Origin: Peribacillus muralis
Lineage (GTDB): Bacteria; Bacillota; Bacilli; Bacillales; DSM-1321
DNA: 64,000 nucleotides
Reading direction: 5' to 3'
Assembly (NCBI RefSeq): GCF_001645685.2
Contig: NZ_CP017080.1
Location: 796,001-860,000 of the forward strand
Below the pieces are notes generated by a model, which saw only the letters and a program-made list of their open reading frames with translations, did no database searches and had not been told where the DNA came from. A program made the position numbers and the translations under genes. Below are positions 51,312 to 62,979 of this stretch, piece by piece. The stretch's first letter is position 1; every line of letters starts with the position of its first letter.

Positions 51312-52709
51312 TTACTTAACATCTTTTTCTAAATGGTTTGTTGTGGAGGAATTCCTTACGATAATTGAGGAGGAATTCAATTTTTTTCTCATTGGAAAAT
51401 AATATAAAGCAGCCGGAACAATTAAACCAATAACCCAAGCGATGTCTGCCCCATCAAAGAACTTGGCTACCGGCCCTACATAGAATGTTGTATTAATGAA
51501 AGGGATTTCGGCCAAGATTGATACAATGAAAGCTACACAAGCAATCCAATTTATCTTGCCATATTGCCCGTTTACATCAAAAATATCTTTTACATTATAT
51601 TGGCCATGTCGGAGTAAATAATAGTCAACAAGATTGATAGATGTCCAAGGGATCAAAAAATAGCTGATGAAAAAGATGAAATTCAAGAAAAAGGCCAGGA
51701 AATTACTTTGCCCCAGTAAGCACAGAACGGTTCCGGCAACCGTTACACAAAATATCATCGCGATTCTTACTTTTGGTGTAACTTTTAATTTGATGAACGG
51801 TTCAATCGTGGTTATGGTTGCCATGAATGCTCCATATAGGTTAAAGACATTGATGGCAAGCTGTCCAAAGATGATGATGAGGAACATGATTATGGCGAAG
51901 TTCCCAAATAGACCTGCCAGATTTCCGCCAGAGTGATCAAGGAAGTTAGGGATCGCCACGGTTAAGGTTGCACCCAGTGTCATCATCCATATGGTTCCGA
52001 TGACTGTGCCGGCATAGCTATACCAAAATGTATGTGACGTTGGTGTAGTGACGGGTAAGTAGCGGGAATAATCGGCAACATATGGTGCGTATGCCAGCTG
52101 CCATGTTGCTACCATGCTGACGGCCAGCAAAAAAACAGGTAAGTCCAACTGTCCCATTCCCCAACTGCCTGAAGGAACGTGCAATTGAAAAACGATGTAC
52201 GTGGCTGCGATATAGATAAAGAGCGAAGCCCAGGATAATACTTTCTGCATTTTATGAATTAGGTTATAGCCATAAATGGTGGCAACAAAACAAAGAACAT
52301 TTAATGCAAGTATGCTCCACGTCTGATCAATCTTTGTTAAGCTGCTTAAGGTTTGTGCTGCAAGTAAACCGCTGCTTGCGAAAAAACCTAAATAAACGAA
52401 CATAACAAGGAACAACGGGAAAATCGCCCCGATTACACCAAATTGTGCTCGGCTTTGTATCATTTGCGGAATGCCGAGTTGGGGTCCTTGAGCTGAATGG
52501 GATGCCATGAAAATGGCGCCTAATAGGGTACCGATGACTATGGCTCCCAAACTCCAAAATAAGTTAAGGCCTAACGCAATCGGAAGTGCCCCGGTCACAA
52601 GAGTGGTAATATGCATGTTCGCCCCAAACCAAATGGGAAATAAATCACGGGCCTTACCGTGGCGTTCATCTGCCGGAATGTACTCAATACTGCGGGTTTC
52701 AACTTTCAT
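51312..52709 (-). CDS. NCS1-family permease (first of two paralogues)
   Basis: GGGGGAACATTG fits the ATG at 52709, giving 465 residues (MKVETRSIEYIP). About 12 helices and the NCS1 blocks LFPIWFGANMHITTLVTGAL, IPQMIQSRAQFGVIGAIF and YVADYSRYLPVTTP (about residues 224-237) identify a nucleobase:cation symporter-1, whose members carry cytosine, purines, hydantoins, allantoin or pyridoxine. The protein at 61582 is a close paralogue throughout. It carries the same 18-base operator as the GntR gene, so it should be co-regulated with the catabolic block to its right. The substrate is unknown. Confidence 0.88.
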   Translation of the reverse strand: MKVETRSIEYIPADERHGKARDLFPIWFGANMHITTLVTGALPIALGLNLFWSLGAIVIGTLLGAIFMASHSAQGPQLGIPQMIQSRAQFGVIGAIFPLFLVMFVYLGFFASSGLLAAQTLSSLTKIDQTWSILALNVLCFVATIYGYNLIHKMQKVLSWASLFIYIAATYIVFQLHVPSGSWGMGQLDLPVFLLAVSMVATWQLAYAPYVADYSRYLPVTTPTSHTFWYSYAGTVIGTIWMMTLGATLTVAIPNFLDHSGGNLAGLFGNFAIIMFLIIIFGQLAINVFNLYGAFMATITTIEPFIKLKVTPKVRIAMIFCVTVAGTVLCLLGQSNFLAFFLNFIFFISYFLIPWTSINLVDYYLLRHGQYNVKDIFDVNGQYGKINWIACVAFIVSILAEIPFINTTFYVGPVAKFFDGADIAWVIGLIVPAALYYFPMRKKLNSSSIIVRNSSTTNHLEKDVK

Positions 52710-52739
52710 CAATGTTCCCCCAATCAATTTTCGTTATTC

Positions 52740-52757
52740 TACCATGTACCATGCAAG
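52740..52757. promoter_or_regulatory. 18-base GntR operator, copy 1
   Basis: Reverse complement of CTTGCATGGTACATGGTA, identical to the copies at 53071-53088 and 60606-60623. It lies just upstream of the leftward permease start. Confidence 0.82.
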
Positions 52758-52781
52758 CTAATTTATAAAATTCACTATAAT

Positions 52782-52795
52782 TGTAAGCGTATACA
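52782..52795. promoter_or_regulatory. cre-like site in the permease/GntR intergenic region
   Basis: TGTAAGCGTATACA matches cre except for A in place of T at position 10. It may add carbon control to the divergent genes. Confidence 0.45.
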
Positions 52796-53026
52796 GATGT
52801 CAATATTTTCTGAAAAAATATTTAATTCGGTCTTGCTGCATCTGCTTACTGAAGGAGAATGAAATTTTGTCGGATTTTCAAAAACATTCCCCGTCGTTCC
52901 GCGTGTTCATATTATCAGTTATTAAAAAGGCATTATTAGCTTTTTAACCATTTTGCCGGGCTATCTTTCTATATAGAGAAGTACGGCAATCGCAAAAAGA
53001 AAATGGAAATTTTTTATTTTTTTGAA

Positions 53027-53055
53027 TTGACAGTCTATTTAACATGACCTATAAT
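53027..53055 (+). promoter_or_regulatory. Promoter of the GntR operon
   Basis: TTGACA (53027-53032) and TATAAT (53050-53055) are 17 bases apart, a perfect housekeeping promoter. The operator starts 15 bases after the -10, so the bound regulator would block initiation. Confidence 0.88.
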
Positions 53056-53070
53056 TGCACTTATCAAGAG

Positions 53071-53088
53071 CTTGCATGGTACATGGTA
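53071..53088. promoter_or_regulatory. 18-base GntR operator, copy 2
   Basis: CTTGCATGGTACATGGTA, identical to copies 1 and 3. It contains the direct repeat CATGGTA twice and CATG on both sides of GTA. Confidence 0.82.
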
Positions 53089-53128
53089 CATACTTTTTCA
53101 AAAGGAGGGGCTTTTCATTACAGCCATT

Positions 53129-53791
53129 TTGACTTTAGGAATTACAGCTCAGGTTACGAATGCCATACGTGAATCCATTGTGAATGGAGAATATGAGCCA
53201 GGGCAAAAATTATCGGAAACCGTTTTATCAGAACATTACAAAGTTAGCAGGACTCCCATTAGGGAAGCATTCAAGCAGTTGGAAAGAGAAGGTTTAGTGG
53301 AGATCATCCCAAGAGTCGGCACATGTGTGACGAAACCGACCGAAGAGGAACTAAACGAATTATTTACTTTAAAGGAAGTCATGGAAGGGCTCGCAGCGGG
53401 CTTGCTGGCGGAAAGAGGAAATGTCGAAGCCGTTCAAGCACTGAAACAAGCGGTGTCCGACATGGAGAATGCTATACGAACGTCGGATAAAAAGCTTTAT
53501 GTAGAGGCCAATGAAGTATTCCATTCCATCATTCAAGAGGGCGCCAATAACTCTAAATTGAGTTACATGCTAAACTTGCTGCTCAATCAAATCCCTTATC
53601 GGCAATACGTCTTTCTGACCATCGAAGATCCGAATAGACGTGAAAGATCATTGAAAGAGCATCAGGCAGTCTTGGCTGCTATAGAAAAAGGTGACCGGGA
53701 GGAAGCTGAGAAAGCGATGCGGGAGCACGTCAAAGCAAGTGGAATGCAACTTAAAATCGACATAGCAAAAAAACTTGGTCAGAAAAATTGA
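53129..53791 (+). CDS. GntR (FadR-type) regulator of the catabolic cluster
   Basis: The start is unclear. AAAGGAGGGG at 53101-53110 is ideally placed for an ATT at 53117, while the TTG at 53129 (MTLGITAQVTNAIRESI) gives a normal family length but is 18 bases away; a TTG at 53072 would lie inside the operator. The product has about 220 residues. It has a winged helix with KLSETVLSEHYKVSRTPIRE (about residues 24-43) and a FadR/FCD helical ligand domain. Proteins of this type repress catabolic genes until the substrate binds. The 18-base motif at its own promoter and two others is its likely site. Confidence 0.85.
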   Translation: MTLGITAQVTNAIRESIVNGEYEPGQKLSETVLSEHYKVSRTPIREAFKQLEREGLVEIIPRVGTCVTKPTEEELNELFTLKEVMEGLAAGLLAERGNVEAVQALKQAVSDMENAIRTSDKKLYVEANEVFHSIIQEGANNSKLSYMLNLLLNQIPYRQYVFLTIEDPNRRERSLKEHQAVLAAIEKGDREEAEKAMREHVKASGMQLKIDIAKKLGQKN

Positions 53792-53809
53792 ATGGAGGGG
53801 GAATGAGTT

Positions 53810-54955
53810 ATGAAATTTGGGATTTTTGCAAACTTAGCCGGACAAGGCAGGCATGATGAATATTATAAAGTGTTGGATGAGGCCCGCGAGCAAGCGGTTT
53901 ATTGTGATGAAAATGGATATGATTCGATTTGGTATACAGAGCACCACTTTGGACATGAAGGCAATGAATTAATTTCCAACCCGATCCTAATGGGTGCTGA
54001 TATTGCTGCCCGGACAAAGAATATACGGATTGGACAGGCTGCGAATGTCGCTACATTCTGGCATCCATTACGTTTGGCCGAAGACATAGCGATGCTTGAC
54101 CAATTAAGTAAGGGTCGTGTGGAGGTTGGCCTCGCAAGGGGATTATACGGAAGGGAAGCAGCAAATTTAAACACATTGGCAGATCCGGCAAACCAGGAAC
54201 AAAACCGGGCATTGTTTGAAGAAACATTAGAGGTATTAAAGAAAGCTTGGTCAAACCGTTTCTTTTCACATCAAGGTGACATCTATCAATTTCCTCCAAA
54301 AGGACTAAAGTGGAGCCATCCAATGAGCCCGGCCACTTCGGAATTCATGGATATGGAACAAGGTGAAATCAATAAAATTTCCCTAATGCCTAGACCTTAC
54401 CAGGATTCTCTTCCTTTATGGCAAGTAATTGATTCGCCACGTTCGATCGAATTGGCTGCAGAAAACGATATTAAAGGAATGTTCTGGATGCCTACGGTTA
54501 AAGAATTGAAAGGACGCTTTGAACTGTATCGTGAAAGGGCTTCCAAAGCGAAAGGCTATGAGGTGCCGCTAGGTCATGGAATTGCATTAGTACGAGATGT
54601 ATATGTAGCTGAAACAATGGAACAGGCTCGTCAAGATGCGGCAGAAGCGGTATTGAACAATTATCGGTGGATTTGTCATTGGAGAGGGCTGGGCAATCTC
54701 ATGGATCCGGGCGAAACAGTAAAAGAAGGGCAAGAGTTGAATTACGAATTCCTGCATCCGCGGAATTTATTGTTTGGTACACCTGATTATGTAGCGGGGA
54801 AGATTCAAGAATTGAAGGCCGAACTGAATTTGGAAACACTATTACTTTGGGTCAATCACAACGGACTGCCACATGACAAAATGATGAAAAGCTTAAGATT
54901 GTTTACGGAAGAAGTTATGCCAAGATTCACAGAAACTAAACTGGGGGTAATGTAA
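53810..54955 (+). CDS. LLM-class flavin-dependent monooxygenase
   Basis: This 381-residue protein has the bacterial luciferase-like TIM barrel: KFGIFANLAGQGRHDEYYKV at the start, then SIWYTEHHFGHEGNELISNP (about residues 41-60), TKNIRIGQAANVATFWHPLR (about 68-87) and GRVEVGLARGLYGREA (about 102-117). Such enzymes use reduced FMN and oxygen to hydroxylate or open rings. RutA and the pyridine monooxygenase PyrA are examples of ring-opening members. The FMN reductase at 57893 is the probable electron source. GGAGGGGG precedes the ATG. It is the probable first enzyme of the pathway; the substrate is unknown. Confidence 0.87.
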   Translation: MKFGIFANLAGQGRHDEYYKVLDEAREQAVYCDENGYDSIWYTEHHFGHEGNELISNPILMGADIAARTKNIRIGQAANVATFWHPLRLAEDIAMLDQLSKGRVEVGLARGLYGREAANLNTLADPANQEQNRALFEETLEVLKKAWSNRFFSHQGDIYQFPPKGLKWSHPMSPATSEFMDMEQGEINKISLMPRPYQDSLPLWQVIDSPRSIELAAENDIKGMFWMPTVKELKGRFELYRERASKAKGYEVPLGHGIALVRDVYVAETMEQARQDAAEAVLNNYRWICHWRGLGNLMDPGETVKEGQELNYEFLHPRNLLFGTPDYVAGKIQELKAELNLETLLLWVNHNGLPHDKMMKSLRLFTEEVMPRFTETKLGVM

Positions 54956-55534
54956 ATGTTGAATATTCGCAAAGTGTATACAGCAGTTGAAGAAACACGT
55001 ATTGAAGGCGGTAAAAAGGTAGAAAATCCAATCAAGATGATAACAACGATGGCGGTGATTAAAAACCCGTGGGCTGGGAGAGGGTATGTTGAAAATTTAA
55101 AACCGGAGATTGATGAATATGCACCGCAAATAGGCGAACTATTAGTCGCTGAACTATTTAAGCATATCGGCTCTGCAGATGAGGTAGAAGCATTCGGCAA
55201 AGCTGCGGTAGTGGGGGTCGATGGGGAAGTTGAACATGCATCTGCATTTATCCATACGTTAAAATTCGGTAACAAATTCCGCGATGCCGTAAAAGGCACG
55301 AGCATCTTAAGCTTCACTAACAAACGCGGCGGCGCAGGATCTCCAGTTCTCATCCCGATGGTGCATAAGACAGATGAGTCTGAGCGTTCTCATTTCATCA
55401 CATTCGAAGCCTCCATTCCCGATGCACCGAGGGCCGATGAAATCGTTGTCGCCATTGGTGCCTCTACAGGAGGCCGACCGCACCCAAGAACAGGAAACAG
55501 GCATCAGGATATGGTTGAAATGGGGCTAGTTTAA
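54956..55534 (+). CDS. DUF1185 (amino acid synthesis family) protein
   Basis: This 192-residue protein starts directly after the monooxygenase stop. Its pattern, TTMAVIKNPWAGRGYVENLK, VGVDGEVEHASAFIHTLKFG and GAGSPVLIPMVHK, is that of DUF1185, named an amino acid synthesis protein without a proven reaction. Members are regularly coded beside LLM monooxygenases and hydrolases. The direct coupling suggests that it acts on the first product, for example as an isomerase or hydrolase; that is inference. No membrane segment or signal peptide is present. Confidence 0.8.
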   Translation: MLNIRKVYTAVEETRIEGGKKVENPIKMITTMAVIKNPWAGRGYVENLKPEIDEYAPQIGELLVAELFKHIGSADEVEAFGKAAVVGVDGEVEHASAFIHTLKFGNKFRDAVKGTSILSFTNKRGGAGSPVLIPMVHKTDESERSHFITFEASIPDAPRADEIVVAIGASTGGRPHPRTGNRHQDMVEMGLV

Positions 55535-56346
55535 TGCCGACTGCGTGGAATGGGCAAGATTCGATCCATTATGAAGAGGAGGGAATCGGTGAAGCTCTTA
55601 TCCTTATTCATGGAGTTGGTCTTGATCATACGATGTGGACAAGGCAAGTAGAGGATTTGTCCAAGCATTTCCGTGTCATCGTGTATGACATGGTAGGGCA
55701 CGGAGGGTCATCGCACCCTCCAGGTCCCTATACGCTTCCCCAGTTTGTTGAACAATTAGCTGAGTTAATTAATTCTTTGAAAATTGACCGATGTCATATT
55801 GTCGGCTTTTCCATGGGTGGTATGGTCGCTTCGGCGTTTGCATTAAAATATTCAGAAAAAATTAAAACGCTTACAATCATGAATGCAGTGGCCACGCGGA
55901 CGGAGGAGCAGCGAAAGGCCATTTTGAAAAGAGTTGAAGAAGTGAAAAGAACAGGGCCCATGGCAACGATCGAACCAGCCATTCAACGTTGGTTCAGTCC
56001 AAGTTTCCTGAATGGACAAAAACAATTGGTAGATCAAATCCGGAAAAGGCTCGAGACAAATGATCATGCTTCATATTCAGCTTCCTATACACTCTTTGCA
56101 ACGGCGGACGAAGAACTATGGCCCCGGATTCAACAAATCAAGGTGCCCACCCAAATCATAACCGGTGAGCTTGATATAGGATCTAATCCCGAAATGGCTG
56201 AACAATTGCATGAAAAAATCGTCAATTCAGAAATGATGATTGTACCAAATATGAAGCATATGCTCCCGATTGAGGGTTCCCATATCGTGAATGAAGCCAT
56301 TCGTTCCTTCATTGAAAAACAAACATTAATGAACGTAGAGGGGTGA
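55534..56346 (+). CDS. Alpha/beta hydrolase of the catabolic cluster
   Basis: The start overlaps the DUF1185 stop (TAATG). The 270-residue protein has the oxyanion stretch LILIHGVGLDHTMW (about residues 22-35), the nucleophile GFSMGG (Ser93), the acid region ITGELDIGSNPEM and His in PNMKHMLPIE. The pattern matches RutD and 3-oxoadipate enol-lactonase-like hydrolases, which cleave ring-opened acids, amides or lactones. Position after the monooxygenase fits hydrolysis of a ring-opening product. Confidence 0.86.
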   Translation: MPTAWNGQDSIHYEEEGIGEALILIHGVGLDHTMWTRQVEDLSKHFRVIVYDMVGHGGSSHPPGPYTLPQFVEQLAELINSLKIDRCHIVGFSMGGMVASAFALKYSEKIKTLTIMNAVATRTEEQRKAILKRVEEVKRTGPMATIEPAIQRWFSPSFLNGQKQLVDQIRKRLETNDHASYSASYTLFATADEELWPRIQQIKVPTQIITGELDIGSNPEMAEQLHEKIVNSEMMIVPNMKHMLPIEGSHIVNEAIRSFIEKQTLMNVEG

Positions 56347-56352
56347 CAGGAA

Positions 56353-57837
56353 GTGAACGAGCTGAAGAAGTATCAGATGTATATAAACGGGGAATGGTCG
56401 GATTCATCAAGTGGTGAATATTTTGATAGCTACAACCCTGCAACTGAAGAAGCATGGTGCCAAGTTGCCAAAGGAAACGCTGAAGATGTGGATCGGGCCG
56501 TTCAAGCTGCACATAATGCGTTCTTGGGTTCAGGATGGTCTAATATGACCTTCACTGAAAGAGGACGTCTCGTTAGGCGGCTTGGTGAACTAATTGCGGA
56601 ACACTCCGAAGAACTTGCCAAAGTGGAATCAATGGATAACGGGAAATTAATCCGGGAAATGCGCGGACAAGTAAGTTATTTGCCTGAATTTTTCTATTAC
56701 TATGCTGGACTAGCGGATAAGATTCATGGCCGAACCTTACCAATTGACAAAAAAGATATGTTCGCTTTCACATCTAAAGAGCCATTAGGGGTAATAGCGG
56801 CCATCACCCCTTGGAACTCCCCTCTATATTTAACAACATTGAAGCTTGCTCCGGCTCTTATAGCTGGAAATACAATTGTCATAAAACCCTCGGAAATGTC
56901 TTCGGCATCTCTATTGGAACTAGTGAAACTGGTTGAAGAGGCCGGGTTTCCTCGGGGCATCGTCAATGTCGTTACCGGTTTTGGGATGCCTGTTGGAGAT
57001 ACATTGACTTCCCACCCTCTTGTAAGGCGTGTTGCATTTACGGGTGGTACGGAGTCAGCTCGGCATATCGTTCGAAATTCAGCACAAAACTTTGCCCAAG
57101 TAACGCTTGAACTCGGCGGAAAATCGCCTAATATCGTGTTTGAGGATGCCAATCCGGATAATGCTGCGATGGGAATCATTGCTGGAATCTTTGGTGCTTC
57201 CGGACAAAGCTGTGTCGCTGGTTCACGGGCATTTTTACATGTTGATATTTATGATGAGGTGATGCAGAGGCTTGTTGACCGTGTATCAAAAATTAAGATT
57301 GGCGATCCTTTTCTTGATGATACGGAAATGGGGCCGCTGGCTACGAGCTCTCAATTGGAGCGTGTCGAGAAATTCGTGGCCATCGGGTTAGATGAAGGTG
57401 GAAAACTCGTGTTTGGCGGGAAAAGGCCAAAGCATTTGGATAAGGGCTGGTATTTTGAACCTACGATCTTCGAACACTCAGATAATCGTTCGCAGATCAC
57501 GAAAGAAGAAATATTTGGTCCCGTGTTAAGTGTCATCCCATTTAAAGATGAGCAAGAGGTCATTCAACTAGCAAATAGTACGGATTACGGACTAGCGGCA
57601 GGGATTTGGGTGAGTGATATTGGAAAAGCCCATCGAGTCGCGAAAGCTATCCGTGCTGGAATCGTATGGGTAAATACTTATCGAAGCATATCACCGATTG
57701 CTGCAATTGGAGGATCCGGCTTAAGCGGATACGGAAGAGAAGGCGGTTATGAGGCAATTCATGAGTATATGCAGGACAAGGTTGTTTGGGTCAATACATC
57801 ATCCGAACCCATCCCTGATCCGTTCATTATGAGGTAA
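56353..57837 (+). CDS. Aldehyde dehydrogenase (first of two)
   Basis: The GTG start is preceded by AGGAAG. The 494-residue enzyme has the NAD-binding GVIAAITPWNSPLYLTTLKL (about residues 146-165), the catalytic Glu253 in LELGGKSPN and Cys287 in GQSCVAGSR. It oxidises an aldehyde to an acid in the cytoplasm. The class is like gamma-aminobutyraldehyde/betaine-type ALDHs, but the true substrate is probably a ring-derived semialdehyde. The 3' end is 55 bases from the FMN reductase. Confidence 0.9.
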   Translation: MNELKKYQMYINGEWSDSSSGEYFDSYNPATEEAWCQVAKGNAEDVDRAVQAAHNAFLGSGWSNMTFTERGRLVRRLGELIAEHSEELAKVESMDNGKLIREMRGQVSYLPEFFYYYAGLADKIHGRTLPIDKKDMFAFTSKEPLGVIAAITPWNSPLYLTTLKLAPALIAGNTIVIKPSEMSSASLLELVKLVEEAGFPRGIVNVVTGFGMPVGDTLTSHPLVRRVAFTGGTESARHIVRNSAQNFAQVTLELGGKSPNIVFEDANPDNAAMGIIAGIFGASGQSCVAGSRAFLHVDIYDEVMQRLVDRVSKIKIGDPFLDDTEMGPLATSSQLERVEKFVAIGLDEGGKLVFGGKRPKHLDKGWYFEPTIFEHSDNRSQITKEEIFGPVLSVIPFKDEQEVIQLANSTDYGLAAGIWVSDIGKAHRVAKAIRAGIVWVNTYRSISPIAAIGGSGLSGYGREGGYEAIHEYMQDKVVWVNTSSEPIPDPFIMR

Positions 57838-57892
57838 GTGAAGCCATGGTGGAAGTGAATTTCAAATCAAATCAAATGAGGAGGGAAATGAC

Positions 57893-58453
57893 ATGAAATT
57901 ACTAGGTATTTCAGGGACGATTATAGGATCGAAAACAAAAGTCGTCGTGGAAAAGGTTTTAGAAGAGGTAAGGGCTAACCACCCTGATATAGAAGTTGAA
58001 CTGCTTGATTTGAAAAAGTATGATGTTCAATTTTGTGATGGCCGTAATCCATCAACATATGAAGGAGATACAAAAAAAGTAATCGATATCGTGACCTCGG
58101 CGGACTTTTACATTATTGGGACCCCCATATTTCAAGGATCGATAACAGGGGCTCTGAAAAACTTGTTTGATTTAGTGCCGCCAAATGACTTCCGCAATAA
58201 AGTGATGGGTCTTGTAGCTACTGGTGGAACGTATCAGCATTATTTAGTGATGGAAAATCAGCTAAAGCCCATCGCCAGCTATTTCCGCGCATTTGTTGCA
58301 CCTGGGTCTGTTTATGCTCATAACGATCATTTCAATCCGCAAAACGAGTTGATTGATGAGGAAGTATTGCAACGTATTTCCATGCTGAGTGAAGAAGTCG
58401 TTTTTATGCAAAAAGCATTGAAAAGCACTGAACAAGAGCCCCAATTAAATTAA
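57893..58453 (+). CDS. NAD(P)H-dependent FMN reductase
   Basis: This 186-residue protein has a flavodoxin-like fold: MKLLGISGTIIGSKTKVVVE at the start and the conserved GTPIFQGSITGALKNLFDLV at about residues 76-95. It resembles SsuE/MsuE-type reductases that supply reduced FMN to LLM monooxygenases. It is five genes into the same operon, so it is the natural partner of the enzyme at 53810. GAGGAGGG precedes the ATG. Confidence 0.88.
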   Translation: MKLLGISGTIIGSKTKVVVEKVLEEVRANHPDIEVELLDLKKYDVQFCDGRNPSTYEGDTKKVIDIVTSADFYIIGTPIFQGSITGALKNLFDLVPPNDFRNKVMGLVATGGTYQHYLVMENQLKPIASYFRAFVAPGSVYAHNDHFNPQNELIDEEVLQRISMLSEEVVFMQKALKSTEQEPQLN

Positions 58454-58515
58454 CGGGAAAGATTAGCTTTACAAAATGTAATATTTCAACATCAAGGTAG
58501 CAAGGAGGGAACAAA

Positions 58516-58821
58516 TTGCTATTGGGTGCAGAAGAGACCGTTCATTTAACTGATCTATCCTTTATATCCGTTTGTAATGAAAAATACGGAATCAATAGAG
58601 GGGTTTATAATACCATCGATGCTTGGTTTTACAAGCAAGGATTGAATAACATTCTGGAAAGACGGAATAGTATCCTGGAATTCCTCGAATTCATTAAGGG
58701 AACTGCTGATATGAAACATAGCCAATGTAAATTCGGTCATGGCGGATTAACGGTAAAATTAGAAGAATTTTATTTTCCAGGTATGACATCGACTGTTTCA
58801 AAGATTGCCTCTAATCGTTAG
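58516..58821 (+). CDS. Unrecognised 101-residue protein in the catabolic cluster
   Basis: AAGGAGGG at 58502-58509 fits a TTG at 58516. The protein begins MLLGAEETVHLTDLSFISVC and has a central helical region (NTIDAWFYKQGLNNILERRN). A later stretch, KHSQCKFGHGGLTVKL, contains Cys and His that could bind metal. I do not recognise the family, and it has no signal peptide or membrane helix. It sits between the FMN reductase and the second aldehyde dehydrogenase, so a role in the same pathway is likely but unproven. Confidence 0.7.
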   Translation: MLLGAEETVHLTDLSFISVCNEKYGINRGVYNTIDAWFYKQGLNNILERRNSILEFLEFIKGTADMKHSQCKFGHGGLTVKLEEFYFPGMTSTVSKIASNR

Positions 58822-58858
58822 ATGAACCGCATACAAAGAGTGAAGGGTAGCTGTTGAT

Positions 58859-60301
58859 ATGACAATTATAGATAACGTTATAACAAAAAAATTACTCATC
58901 AATGGAAAATGGGTGAAAGCAAAAGAGCATCGTCCACTTCGCTCTCCCTATTCAGGGGAAGTAATCGCTGAAATCCCTATGGCTACAGATGAAGAAACCG
59001 GCTTGGCGATTGAAGCGGCGCAAAAGGCAACGAAGGTGATGGCAAAAATGCCGGCACATCGACGTGCGAAAATCCTGGAAACATTGGCCAGGCTTATTGA
59101 AGAGCGTGCGGATGAAGCGGCACAAATCATATCCAAAGAATCTTCCAAGCCGATAACATCCGCCAAGGGAGAGGTGGCCCGGACAATTGAAACCTATAAG
59201 TTTGCTGCAGAAGAAGCGAAACGAATTCATGGAGAAACGCTCTCATTGGATGCCGCACAGGGCGGTGAGAACCGTCTGGGCTACACCGTCCGTGAACCGA
59301 TTGGCGTGGTTGGGGCTATAACGCCTTTCAATTTCCCTATGAATCTAGTCGCTCACAAAGTTGGTCCGGCGATTGCTGCAGGAAACACAATCGTCCTGAA
59401 GCCAGCAAGTCAAACGCCACTATCTTCATTGTTTCTAGCAGAATTATTGTTGGAAGCAGGGTTGCCTGAAGGAGCATTAAATGTGGTCACGGGTGGAGGA
59501 AGAGTGGTTGGAGATAAGCTGGTCACTGATTCCAGAGTGAATATGATCACGTTTACCGGAAGTCCCGGGGTTGGGATCGGCATTCGCAATAAAGCAGGAT
59601 TGAAGCGCGTGACTCTTGAGCTCGGGTCCAATGCAGCCGTCATTATCGATCGTGATGTAGACATTGATAAGATTATTTCCCGTTGTGTGACAGGGGCCTT
59701 TTCAAACCAAGGGCAGGTTTGCATTTCGTTGCAAAGGATTTATGCCCATGAAGAAGTCTATGATTGCTTTGTCGATAAATTCATAGAAGCAACGAAACAA
59801 TTGATCCTGGGTGATCCGCTTGATCCAGAGACTGACGTTTCCGCTTTGATTTCAGCACATGATGTGGAAAGGACCCTCAATTGGATCGAGGAGGCAAAAT
59901 CATGCGGAGCCAAGATTGCAACTGGTGGAATAGCGGAGGGCAATATTCTTCATCCGACCGTCATATTAAATGCCGATACTCACTTAAAGGTTTCCTGTCA
60001 GGAAGTGTTTGCACCAATCGTTCTGATAAACAAGATCGCATCTATTGATGAAGCGATTGATTTGGTCAATGATTCCAACTACGGCCTTCAAGCAGGAATT
60101 TATACCGACAATGTGCATACAGCACTGGATGCAGCAGAAAATTTACATGTTGGTGGTGTATTGATAAACGATATTCCGACCTTCCGTGTCGATAATATGC
60201 CCTACGGTGGTGTGAAGGAAAGTGGCACAGGGCGTGAGGGATTAAAGTATGCAGTCGAAGAAATGACTGAAATGAAGCTGGTTATCTGGAATCGAAATTA
60301 G
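58859..60301 (+). CDS. Aldehyde dehydrogenase (second of two)
   Basis: This 480-residue enzyme has catalytic Glu254 in VTLELGSNAA and Cys288 in NQGQVCISLQRIY. The N-terminal half includes PIGVVGAITPFNFPMNLVAH (about residues 147-166). The sequence is of the lactaldehyde/succinate-semialdehyde side of the family and is clearly distinct from the first ALDH. Two ALDHs of different types suggest two successive aldehyde oxidations. The spacing to the upstream gene is 37 bases. GGGTAGC is a weak ribosome site. Confidence 0.9.
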   Translation: MTIIDNVITKKLLINGKWVKAKEHRPLRSPYSGEVIAEIPMATDEETGLAIEAAQKATKVMAKMPAHRRAKILETLARLIEERADEAAQIISKESSKPITSAKGEVARTIETYKFAAEEAKRIHGETLSLDAAQGGENRLGYTVREPIGVVGAITPFNFPMNLVAHKVGPAIAAGNTIVLKPASQTPLSSLFLAELLLEAGLPEGALNVVTGGGRVVGDKLVTDSRVNMITFTGSPGVGIGIRNKAGLKRVTLELGSNAAVIIDRDVDIDKIISRCVTGAFSNQGQVCISLQRIYAHEEVYDCFVDKFIEATKQLILGDPLDPETDVSALISAHDVERTLNWIEEAKSCGAKIATGGIAEGNILHPTVILNADTHLKVSCQEVFAPIVLINKIASIDEAIDLVNDSNYGLQAGIYTDNVHTALDAAENLHVGGVLINDIPTFRVDNMPYGGVKESGTGREGLKYAVEEMTEMKLVIWNRN

Positions 60302-60314
60302 GGAGTGGGGAAGC

Positions 60315-60572
60315 ATGGTTTATTATGCAGCGCTTTTGCATATGATTGATGCGGAGAAAAATATGGAAGTGCGCCCTCGACATATCAAATATTTAGACGA
60401 ATTGGATGCTAAAGGGAAGATTTTTGCAAGAGGCCCGTTTGCGGATGGTACAGGTGGGTTAGTCGTATATATCGCAGATTCAATGGAAGAAGCCCTTACA
60501 TTGGCGGAAAAGGATCCACATGTCGTTGAGAAGTCTCGTCGGTTGGAGCTTAAGGAATGGTCGTTACTATAA
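60315..60572 (+). CDS. YciI-like protein
   Basis: This 85-residue protein has the YCII pattern: MVYYAALLHMIDAEKNMEVR, then RPRHIKYLDELDAKGKIFAR and GPFADGTGGLVVY. The family folds like ABM domains and carries a His (in RPRH) and an Asp often needed for activity; some members are dehalogenases or isomerases. It follows the second ALDH by 13 bases behind GGGAGTGGGG. Its role in the pathway is unknown. Confidence 0.82.
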   Translation: MVYYAALLHMIDAEKNMEVRPRHIKYLDELDAKGKIFARGPFADGTGGLVVYIADSMEEALTLAEKDPHVVEKSRRLELKEWSLL

Positions 60573-60605
60573 AAAGTCGAACAATAAATTTCTTTATACT
60601 TCATT

Positions 60606-60623
60606 CTTGCATGGTACATGGTA
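60606..60623 (+). promoter_or_regulatory. 18-base GntR operator, copy 3
   Basis: CTTGCATGGTACATGGTA, identical over 18 bases to the copies at 52740 and 53071. It lies 94 bases before the amidohydrolase-like gene, which suggests a separate regulated promoter there. Confidence 0.85.
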
Positions 60624-60716
60624 GATAAAATGATCGTGAATCATGCATGTAAGTATATATCAATGTTACTGAAACGATAGCAATTGAAAAGATAAGATAC
60701 TTAGGAGTGGGCTATA

Positions 60717-61385
60717 GTGGAAAAGAAAAAAACGGCACTACTATTGATCGATCTCCAAAAGGAAGGCGGTACATCAAGTGTTGTTGGGATGAATGACATT
60801 ATCGAAAATGCCAAACACCTTATTAGTGCTTGCCGTCATCAGGAGATACCCATCATTTACACTCGGCATATAAGCAGGGGTGATGGTATTGGACTCGCGA
60901 ATAAAGAACCGGTCAATGAAGAAGGAGAACCTATCTATTATCATTCTGCTAAGGAGGCTATAGAAATTAGAGACGAGATAAAGCCTCAAAAAAATGACAT
61001 CATCATTGATAAATACCGATACAGCGGCTTTCATGAATCCAGCCTCGATTTGATACTCAAAAGTCTGGACATTAAGCATTTGATAATTGGAGGGGTCCTT
61101 ACGGATTGCTGTGTGTTCGCTACTATATTAGATGCCTATCATCGTAATTACCAAGTTAATCTCGCTAAAGATATGTGTGGAACGACAACTTTAGGCGCAC
61201 ATATGTCAGCAATATTGATGATGGCCAACTGGATATATGATCTGAAAATTTATGATTCTGATCAAATAGGAAAAATGTTGAGTGATCAAAAGCATCATGT
61301 CTGGGAGGCACAATCTCCAGATCAACTACAATTTTCCCCCGATAATCTTATCGAGATTTACGCAAAATTAAATGATTTTGTGTAA
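60717..61385 (+). CDS. Isochorismatase-like amidohydrolase
   Basis: The GTG start has TAGGAGTGGG upstream. The 222-residue protein belongs to the cysteine-hydrolase superfamily: catalytic Asp12 in LLLIDLQKEGG, Lys99 in IIIDKYRYSGF and Cys132 in GGVLTDCCVFAT. Relatives include RutB (ureidoacrylate amidohydrolase), nicotinamidase and N-carbamoylsarcosine amidase. Here it probably releases ammonia or formate from an open-chain amide made by the monooxygenase. It has its own operator copy and is followed by the second NCS1 permease. Confidence 0.86.
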   Translation: MEKKKTALLLIDLQKEGGTSSVVGMNDIIENAKHLISACRHQEIPIIYTRHISRGDGIGLANKEPVNEEGEPIYYHSAKEAIEIRDEIKPQKNDIIIDKYRYSGFHESSLDLILKSLDIKHLIIGGVLTDCCVFATILDAYHRNYQVNLAKDMCGTTTLGAHMSAILMMANWIYDLKIYDSDQIGKMLSDQKHHVWEAQSPDQLQFSPDNLIEIYAKLNDFV

Positions 61386-61581
61386 AGTGCTAAATATGAT
61401 TATCTTCCCCAAAAAGGCTTCTGAAATAACGGATGGTTGAAAACCAAGCACCTTTTCATCTTTAATCGTGCTTGCCCATTTGGGGGCGGGAATCATTTCG
61501 GAGGATTAATCTAAAATAAATAAATCCGGCAACTGCTGCTTGAATGTGGATAGTTAATGTTCTAATCGAGGGGGAATCGAT

Positions 61582-62979
61582 ATGAAAGTTGAAGAGCGAA
61601 GTATTGAATATATTCCAGCGAATGAGCGACATGGGAAGGCGAAGGATTTATTTCCGATTTGGTTTGGTGCGAATATGAACATTACTACGCTTGTGTCAGG
61701 ATCACTTCCTATTGTGCTGGGTCTGAACTTATTCTGGAGTGTGACTGCCATTATACTCGGTTCCCTAATAGGTGCCATATTCATGGCATCCCATTCAGTA
61801 CAGGGGCCGAAGCTTGGAATCCCGCAGATGATCCAAAGCAGAGCCCAATTTGGAGTCATTGGCGCCATTATCCCTTTGTTCCTTGTCATGTTCATTTACT
61901 TGGGATTTTTCGCAAGCAATACACTTCTGGCGGCCCAAACGATAGCAAACATTTTTCCCATTAACCAATCGTGGAATATAATGATAATCGGTGCAATCTG
62001 TTTTGTCGTCGCCCTTTATGGTTATGACCTCATTCACAAGGTCCAAAAATGGTTTTCGGCTGCATCGTTGTTTCTTTTTTTAATCATGACCTTTATCGTC
62101 TTTCAATTACCGGTGCCTGCTGGACAATGGGTACCCGATGATTTTGCCTTGTCGGGTTTTTTCCTGTCTGTTAGTATTGCGGTTACTTGGCAATTATCCT
62201 ATGCACCATACGTTGCCGATTATTCCCGCTATCTGCCCGTTCATACGCCACCTGCAAAAACCTTTTGGTACAGCTACACAGGTACAGTAATAGGTGCTGT
62301 GTGGATGATGGTTTTAGGTGCGGTTTTAACGGTTGCCATACCCGGTTTTCTCGACAACACCGGAGGCAATTTAGCACACTTATTCGGAAACTTTGCAATC
62401 CTCATGTTTGTATTGATCGTCTTTGGGCAACTTGCCATCAATGTCTTTAATCTATACGGTGCCTTCATGTCCTCGGTTACGACCATCGAGCCGTTTTTCA
62501 AATTCAGGGTTACACCGAAAGTTCGGATGGGGTTCCTGCTTTGCATTACGATCATAGCTACCACTTTATGCATTGTGGGACAAGGCAATTTCCTTGAGTT
62601 TTTCATGAATTTCATCTTTTTTATGAGTTATTTTTTGATCCCCTGGACGTCTATCAACCTTGTTGATTATTATATATTGCGCCAAGGAGAATATAGCGTT
62701 AAAGATATCTTTGATGTGAATGGTAAGTATGGGAAAATCAATTGGATTGCAACCATTGCATTTGTCGCATCAATTGTCGCGGAAATCCCTTTTATCAATA
62801 CATCTTTTTATGTTGGACCAGCCGCAAGAGCGCTTCATGGGGCAGATTTAGCTTGGGCAATGGGGCTATTCTTACCGGCTGTTTTGTATTATTTTCCAAT
62901 GAAACGAAGGATACGTAAGGACATGTTCCCTTCTGGGGTTGATTCCGTGCCAGTTGAACATGATGAATTCCTTTCTTAA
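61582..62979 (+). CDS. NCS1-family permease (second of two paralogues)
   Basis: CGAGGGGGAATCGAT precedes the ATG. The 465-residue protein with about 12 helices is very close to the one at 51312-52709 throughout: MKVEERSIEYIPANERHGKA here and MKVETRSIEYIPADERHGKA there. NCS1 blocks include YVADYSRYLPVHTPPAKTFW. The two copies may move substrate and a related compound, or one may be a recent duplicate. It is about 200 bases after the amidohydrolase gene, and a terminator follows. Confidence 0.88.
   Translation: MKVEERSIEYIPANERHGKAKDLFPIWFGANMNITTLVSGSLPIVLGLNLFWSVTAIILGSLIGAIFMASHSVQGPKLGIPQMIQSRAQFGVIGAIIPLFLVMFIYLGFFASNTLLAAQTIANIFPINQSWNIMIIGAICFVVALYGYDLIHKVQKWFSAASLFLFLIMTFIVFQLPVPAGQWVPDDFALSGFFLSVSIAVTWQLSYAPYVADYSRYLPVHTPPAKTFWYSYTGTVIGAVWMMVLGAVLTVAIPGFLDNTGGNLAHLFGNFAILMFVLIVFGQLAINVFNLYGAFMSSVTTIEPFFKFRVTPKVRMGFLLCITIIATTLCIVGQGNFLEFFMNFIFFMSYFLIPWTSINLVDYYILRQGEYSVKDIFDVNGKYGKINWIATIAFVASIVAEIPFINTSFYVGPAARALHGADLAWAMGLFLPAVLYYFPMKRRIRKDMFPSGVDSVPVEHDEFLS

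Follow-up and report, generated by a model that had tools for sequence, protein, structure and literature searches.

A cluster of twelve genes at positions 51312-62979 of a 64,000-nucleotide stretch of the Peribacillus muralis genome (positions 796,001 to 860,000 of contig NZ_CP017080.1; this whole stretch is referred to as the window, and positions are given in its coordinates) probably encodes a catabolic pathway which, likely under repression by its own GntR protein, takes up a pyridinium betaine, with trigonelline as the likeliest compound, opens its ring with a flavin-dependent enzyme, and continues with steps resembling those of TgnC, TgnD, and TgnF in trigonelline (tgn) degradation. Judged by sequence comparison, the cluster is best matched by the proteobacterial tgn pathway, with which it shares an aldehyde dehydrogenase (ALDH1), an alpha/beta hydrolase, and a DUF1185 protein at the level of orthology, and from which its luciferase-like monooxygenase (LLM) and flavin reductase are distinct. 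Its distinguishing feature is the predicted combination, in one cluster, of a monooxygenase from a different branch with known tgn-type downstream enzymes. A first-pass annotation of the window had described a catabolic cluster for a nucleobase-like or pyridine-like N-heterocycle that differed in its genes and their order from the pathways considered. This description holds for a pyridine-like compound, whose ring the flavin-dependent LLM probably opens, and no known pathway is matched in full. A gene-for-gene match to a characterized pathway, which the annotation had named as grounds for abandoning the idea, was found in the trigonelline pathway, which the annotation had not mentioned, for ALDH1, the hydrolase, and the DUF1185 protein and was not found for the monooxygenase and the reductase. 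The twelve genes are real open frames of the stated families, as judged by Pfam and, for the second aldehyde dehydrogenase (ALDH2) and the second NCS1-family permease (NCS1b), by NCBIfam and by 70% identity to the first permease (NCS1a), respectively. The start of the cluster had been placed at 52709, which is the 5' end of the minus-strand NCS1a gene (51312-52709), and the cluster is therefore longer than first stated.

Trigonelline degradation by TgnABCDEF has been described for Acinetobacter baylyi ADP1 (Perchat 2018, as cited in PMC7913881 and PMC8269262), and PMC7913881 presents A. baylyi TgnF as a DUF1185 homologue that stimulates TgnE. The tgn-type proteins compared here come from plasmid loci and are not the ADP1 proteins, and the tgn label of the Sinorhizobium locus among them was itself inferred. 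This locus (L086), located near nodL and noeA on pSymA of Sinorhizobium medicae, encodes a GntR regulator, a DUF1185 protein, a hydrolase, a flavin reductase, an LLM, an ALDH, a NIPSNAP protein, an ABC carrier, and a succinate-semialdehyde dehydrogenase (SSADH). Among the 120 relatives listed for its LLM, eight carry the name "flavin-dependent trigonelline monooxygenase, oxygenase component", and the others have generic names or none. When the TgnC-like ALDH of L086 was searched against the P. muralis genome (two contigs), the top match was ALDH1 of the window (56353-57837, plus strand) with 542 bits, followed by 382 bits for the next protein. In a quick tree, ALDH1-type proteins and five TgnC types were intermixed in one clade (SH-like approximate likelihood ratio test, SH-aLRT, 100) with seven ALDHs of the same genome outside it, and the ALDH1 of the SAR11 group grouped with the proteobacterial TgnC types; ALDH1 was thus classed as an orthologue of the TgnC type as represented by plasmid loci and not by ADP1. 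The TgnD-like hydrolase of L086 likewise found the alpha/beta hydrolase of the window (55534-56346, plus strand) first, with 124 bits compared with 49 for the next match. This protein joined four TgnD types before RutD and the other hydrolases of the genome (support of 87 in a weak tree with long branches) and was classed as a TgnD-type hydrolase; its Ser93, Asp214, and His242 occupy the usual triad positions by motif, and it is predicted to hydrolyze the ring-opened acid. The DUF1185/AA_synth protein (54956-55534, plus strand; PF06684, 229 bits) shares 50-57% identity with its counterparts in five tgn-type loci and can be regarded as TgnF-like.

The conservation of the cluster was examined in a set of 80 loci, the best of 335 LLM relatives in GTDB genomes, which by record title comprise 31 Bacillales (in the broad sense, including one Staphylococcus), 26 Actinobacteria, 22 SAR11 (Pelagibacteraceae, Pelagibacter, or Pelagibacterales in the title), and one Rhodospirillales; the nearest named relatives of the LLM are from Peribacillus. 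Of the 80 loci, 72 preserve the core order LLM-DUF1185-hydrolase-ALDH1 (30 of 31 Bacillales, 24 of 26 Actinobacteria, 18 of 22 SAR11, and not in the single Rhodospirillales locus). Six of the eight exceptions are contig ends with at most 1.4 kb beyond the LLM; of the other two, L030 has its hydrolase elsewhere, and DUF1185 was not found in L067. At strict E-values, 10 of 43 genomes in the P. muralis family (its own included) encode the LLM, as do 44 of 197 in the SAR11 family to which the L073 genome belongs, three of these 44 with fragments only. Because P. muralis was the sole carrier among 398 sampled Bacillota under the same thresholds, the distribution is read within these two families. 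Beyond the core, gene content differs among the 31 Bacillales loci: tblastn detected the GntR gene in 28, the 101-residue protein in 30, the YciI protein in 25, the FMN reductase in 22, and the isochorismatase in 10, and ALDH2 was labeled in 22 on the basis of open reading frames (ORFs). ORF labels overlook some short genes, so the tblastn counts are preferred where the two differ. In the passages surveyed from open-licence literature, no description of this cluster was found, and no absence from print is claimed.

The carriers encoded at these loci bear on the substrate. BCCT carriers transport betaines and NCS1 carriers transport N-heterocycles, and a pyridinium betaine is both. NCS1a (51312-52709, minus strand; PF02133, 303 bits), which is predicted to take up the substrate, is 34-37% identical to the NCS1 permeases of four tgn-type clusters. 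Among the Bacillales loci, 19 carry a BCCT gene (the assignment being confirmed by Pfam for the four proteins tested) and 12 an NCS1 gene of more than 50% identity, with both in L012 and neither in L031; the actinobacterial loci contain BCCT in nine cases, NCS1 in 17, and both in none. The 57 Gram-positive loci therefore divide into 27 with BCCT only, 28 with NCS1 only, one with both, and one with neither (Fisher's exact p of 6e-14, not corrected for relatedness), and the carrier type switches at least nine times on a quick LLM tree when L012 and L031 are left out. Carriers were also inspected at 13 plasmid loci that belong to the tgn type or come close to it: four encode NCS1 (Pantoea twice, Caballeronia, and Klebsiella), one BCCT (Thioclava), and three a polyamine-type (Pot-type) ABC carrier (Sinorhizobium, Shinella, and Aquabacterium, of which only the last is so named, their binding proteins being 62-79% identical), and ProXWV (ProU-type) lies near the Agrobacterium locus. 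Most of the SAR11 loci contain a divergent Pot-type ABC carrier related to that of Sinorhizobium (31% identity for the binding protein and 43% for the ATPase). Since betaine-type and heterocycle-type carriers are exchanged across loci, the substrate may be best explained as a pyridinium betaine. On sequence grounds, trigonelline would be the likeliest substrate, with homarine or N-methylnicotinamide as further candidates.

The regulation of the cluster can be predicted from a repeated putative operator, CTTGCATGGTACATGGTA, of which the window contains three exact copies, compared with 0.07 sites expected at up to three mismatches. Its 16-base core has three exact matches in the genome, always in the window, before NCS1a, GntR, and the isochorismatase gene; three further genomic sites have two mismatches to the core, and a control with the reversed pattern finds an equal number. 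Copy 1 (52740-52757, minus strand) lies before NCS1a and is preceded on the minus strand by a promoter-like site (52803-52774) with 11 of 12 consensus bases, and copy 2 (53071-53088, plus strand) lies just 3' of a plus-strand TTGACA-17-TATAAT site (53027-53055) that matches 12 of 12 and would serve the main operon. As the promoter scan gave 25 sites overall compared with 28.9 in shuffled sequences, the claim of a main-operon promoter rests on the perfect match and its position. Copy 3 (60606-60623, plus strand) precedes the isochorismatase gene. The GntR/FCD regulator (PF00392 and PF07729; plus strand) is listed at 53072-53791, and this TTG start falls within copy 2, so the true start is probably the TTG at 53129. 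A search of the 31 Bacillales loci with a 15-base form of the operator gave 78 sites at up to two mismatches, compared with 10 for the reversed motif. These sites are located near 27 of 29 GntR, 14 of 20 BCCT, nine of 10 isochorismatase, and seven of 15 high-identity NCS1 frames, and near two of three ADH, one of four carboxymuconolactone decarboxylase (CMD), one of 31 LLM, and none of five distant NCS1 frames, compared with six of 212 unlabeled frames. The position of copies 1 and 2 just downstream of divergent promoter-like sites fits a repressor, and the GntR protein encoded in the cluster is likely to be this repressor. Together, the core order and the excess of operator copies indicate that the block is not a chance grouping.

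A possible route can be proposed from these assignments. The NCS1 permeases would import the pyridinium betaine, and the NADPH-dependent FMN reductase of MsuE/SsuE type (57893-58453, plus strand; PF03358) would supply FMNH2 to the LLM (53810-54955, plus strand; PF00296), which may open the ring to give an N-formyl(methyl)amino aldehyde. ALDH1 could then oxidize the ring-opened aldehyde to the acid, on which the alpha/beta hydrolase may act to release formate, methylamine, CO2, and a C4 semialdehyde; we take these intermediates and products to be those of the tgn pathway. ALDH2 (58859-60301, plus strand; assigned by NCBIfam, and a predicted semialdehyde dehydrogenase) or a housekeeping SSADH would finish the route, and the isochorismatase together with NCS1b could admit an amide of the same compound.

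Several observations weigh against this reading. The LLM is 25-28% identical to TgnB types, falls in a separate clade, and did not qualify as a TgnB orthologue; in a quick tree with long branches, an approximately unbiased (AU) test disfavors a single clade of the window LLMs and the TgnB types (p of 0.023). The reductase belongs to a family (FMN_red) other than that of the tgn-type reductases and had no BLAST match to five of them at E<1e-4, so it was not classed as a TgnA orthologue. The similarity of the hydrolase to TgnD types is modest (29-35% identity), and ALDH2 was rejected as an orthologue of TgnE because an SSADH that matches the tgn-linked one better sits elsewhere in the genome (52% identity compared with 36% for ALDH2). 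With regard to carriers, the actinobacterial NCS1 proteins are only 28-32% identical to the NCS1 of the window, and five Sporosarcina loci combine BCCT with a distantly related NCS1 next to the isochorismatase gene (22-25% identity); when these are counted, loci with both carriers rise from one to six of 57 (Fisher's exact p of 2e-9, again not corrected for relatedness). Four of the 13 plasmid loci also differ, with a Ugp-type ABC carrier in Leisingera, a TRAP carrier in Parasedimentitalea, and no carrier in the shorter stretches of Thalassospira and Acidiphilium; no LLM is present among the listed genes of the Acidiphilium locus. Finally, in Sciscionella marina a window-type cluster coexists with a TgnB-like locus, which suggests that the two monooxygenases may serve different substrates. 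Its TgnB-like locus gave reductase, hydrolase, and CMD matches, and no DUF1185 match within the 17 kb fetched.

The non-orthologous LLM and the presence of both LLM kinds in S. marina favor the alternative that a pathway of the same kind acts on another pyridinium or pyridine substrate, such as homarine, N-methylnicotinamide, nicotinate, or a pyridoxine relative, and that trigonelline is not used. The isochorismatase-NCS1 pair, which suggests an amide substrate, and the frequency of the LLM in the SAR11 family, taken with reports on homarine in seawater, point in the same direction. According to PMC8269262, homarine exceeds trigonelline in seawater, its breakdown pathway was uncharacterized as of 2021, and TgnA/TgnB are unlikely to act on it; these statements keep homarine a candidate for the SAR11 version, and a published correction reports that the homarine values of that article were overstated. 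On the other hand, ALDH1, the hydrolase, and the DUF1185 protein group with tgn-type enzymes, which act after ring opening, and even the SAR11 ALDH1 falls with proteobacterial TgnC types. This alternative is considered rather unlikely. The Rut-like logic suggested in the first-pass annotation, that is, ring opening of a pyrimidine or another nucleobase, was rejected and appears scarcely credible. The same broad classes occur (LLM, isochorismatase fold, alpha/beta hydrolase, flavin reductase, and nucleobase-type permease), but RutA had no BLAST match to the LLM at E<1e-4, the RutA model is absent from the 19 NCBIfam hits of the LLM, which was not classed as a RutA homologue, and RutC, RutE, RutF, and RutG have no counterpart among the cluster proteins at the same BLAST threshold. 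In NCBIfam, the RutB model gives the isochorismatase 63 bits (cutoff of 378) and the RutD model gives the hydrolase 91.8 bits (cutoff of 238.5), far below equivalog level in both cases, and the similarity of cluster proteins to RutB and RutD is 22-26% identity, the hydrolase being 22% identical to RutD compared with 29-35% to TgnD types. In addition, BCCT betaine carriers stand in for the NCS1 permease at related loci. Degradation of unsubstituted or alkyl-pyridines resembling that by PyrA of Arthrobacter sp. 68b is also very improbable. The Pyr pathway of this strain reportedly follows the same chemical logic, with direct flavin-dependent ring opening by an LLM and a reductase, followed by an ALDH, a hydrolase, and an SSADH; to our knowledge, however, it includes no DUF1185 protein or betaine carrier, and neither would have a role in it.

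With respect to the monooxygenase itself, ten TgnB-like sequences formed one clade with a support of 98 in the quick LLM tree that was also used for the AU test, from which RutA, own_L108, SAR_L068, and SAR_L076 were left out. The window LLM clade joined an LLM clade associated with RibB (support of 91), and its separation from the RibB-associated sequences reached only 70. When a TgnB-type query was searched in seven genomes, the best match in both SAR11 genomes was an LLM of the window type. The nearest clade to the window LLM, represented by L087 (Sulfitobacter) and L088 (a Peribacillus plasmid), is 32-37% identical to it and, unlike the window, has no DUF1185 gene within the 19 kb fetched for each of the two loci. 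The LLM genes of L087 and L088 lie beside genes for an MBL-fold or lactonase-type hydrolase and for RibB or riboflavin kinase, and L088 also carries a relative of the 101-residue protein. Further LLM subtypes occur in the DUF1185 loci L118 and L116/L089 with RidA, CoA-transferase, or CMD genes; the LLM subtypes of DUF1185 loci, when the Sinorhizobium TgnB type is counted, are 42-48% identical to one another. The DUF1185-containing module thus seems to have been paired with several monooxygenases. A more tentative proposal, which we hold to be possible without expecting it to be correct, is that the window LLM clade represents a second, independently recruited monooxygenase for the ring opening of pyridinium betaines on the TgnC/TgnD/TgnF module in Firmicutes, Actinobacteria, and SAR11, that it provides an oceanic route for homarine or trigonelline, and that the isochorismatase-NCS1 pair of Bacillales is an entry for N-methylnicotinamide.

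The remaining genes of the cluster are located downstream of ALDH1. The 101-residue protein (58516-58821, plus strand) had been regarded as an orphan, which is not the case, because 66 proteins match it, itself included, and tblastn places it in nearly all Bacillales loci (26 of 31 by ORF label); in these 26 loci it is preceded by the FMN reductase gene in 12, by ALDH1 in seven, and by a RibB-like gene in six. Its predicted structure is all-helical and has no fold match in the PDB at E<=0.001. The name riboflavin kinase, which some JGI entries give to this protein, was rejected on the basis of this model and of Pfam, which detects no flavokinase; the single PF01687 match, in P0302, covers residues 2-58, mostly an extra N-terminal stretch. 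The YciI-family small protein (60315-60572, plus strand; PF03795) is followed by the isochorismatase-family hydrolase (60717-61385, plus strand; PF00857), a predicted amidase with Asp12, Lys99, and the Cys pair 131-132 by motif, which presumably correspond to the Asp-Lys-Cys triad of the family. NCS1b (61582-62979, plus strand) completes the cluster. In all 10 loci that carry the isochorismatase gene, it is directly followed by an NCS1 gene, and these NCS1 genes belong to two unlike lineages that are 82-90% and 22-25% identical to the NCS1 of the window. Our guess is that the isochorismatase and NCS1b form an import-plus-amidase pair for an amide such as N-methylnicotinamide.

Related loci vary in several further respects. 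A Flavin_Reduct-type protein is labeled in 11 of the 31 Bacillales loci (ORF label; the one tested was confirmed by Pfam), and a RibB-like protein is labeled in 10 (ORF label; the one examined, in L020, is a RibB-flavokinase fusion). A CMD gene lies near the cluster in four Bacillales loci (L015, L018, L026, and L029), and the CMD of L026 is a PcaC equivalog that is 52% identical to the CMD of L116, a tgn-type cluster of Agrobacterium. The actinobacterial loci inspected, L037 and L055, have a tandem pair of DUF1185 genes after the LLM, and L037 also encodes a flavin reductase that carries a fused SnoaL domain. In L073 (3393-9860) and other SAR11 loci, genes for a EutA-like protein of the Amdase family (17 of 22, some contigs being cut), a DoeA/EutD-like M24 hydrolase (15 of 22), and the Pot-type ABC carrier are divergent from the core; both enzymes score under the ectoine equivalog cutoffs.

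Betaines of plants and phytoplankton include trigonelline and its isomer homarine, whose range of users would be broadened by the route predicted for soil Bacillales, Actinobacteria, and SAR11. The cluster offers a testable candidate role for the LLM clade, the DUF1185 family, and the small helical protein, and genome searches with TgnB alone would overlook this version of the pathway. If the LLM clade is indeed a second monooxygenase for these compounds, it could represent a missing oceanic route for homarine or trigonelline in 44 of the 197 SAR11-family genomes sampled (three with LLM fragments only). In comparison with known systems, the cluster has broad enzyme classes alone in common with the Rut system of Escherichia coli (rutRABCDEFG). 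With tgn-type clusters it shares TgnC-, TgnD-, and TgnF-like enzymes, an LLM with a flavin reductase, a GntR regulator, carriers of the NCS1, BCCT, or ABC type, and a small NIPSNAP, DUF1330, or YciI protein, the three families presumably having a common dimeric-barrel fold. It differs from them in the clade of its LLM, the family of its reductase, an ALDH2 that is not an SSADH orthologue, and the gene order, and it adds the isochorismatase-NCS1 pair and the 101-residue helical protein.

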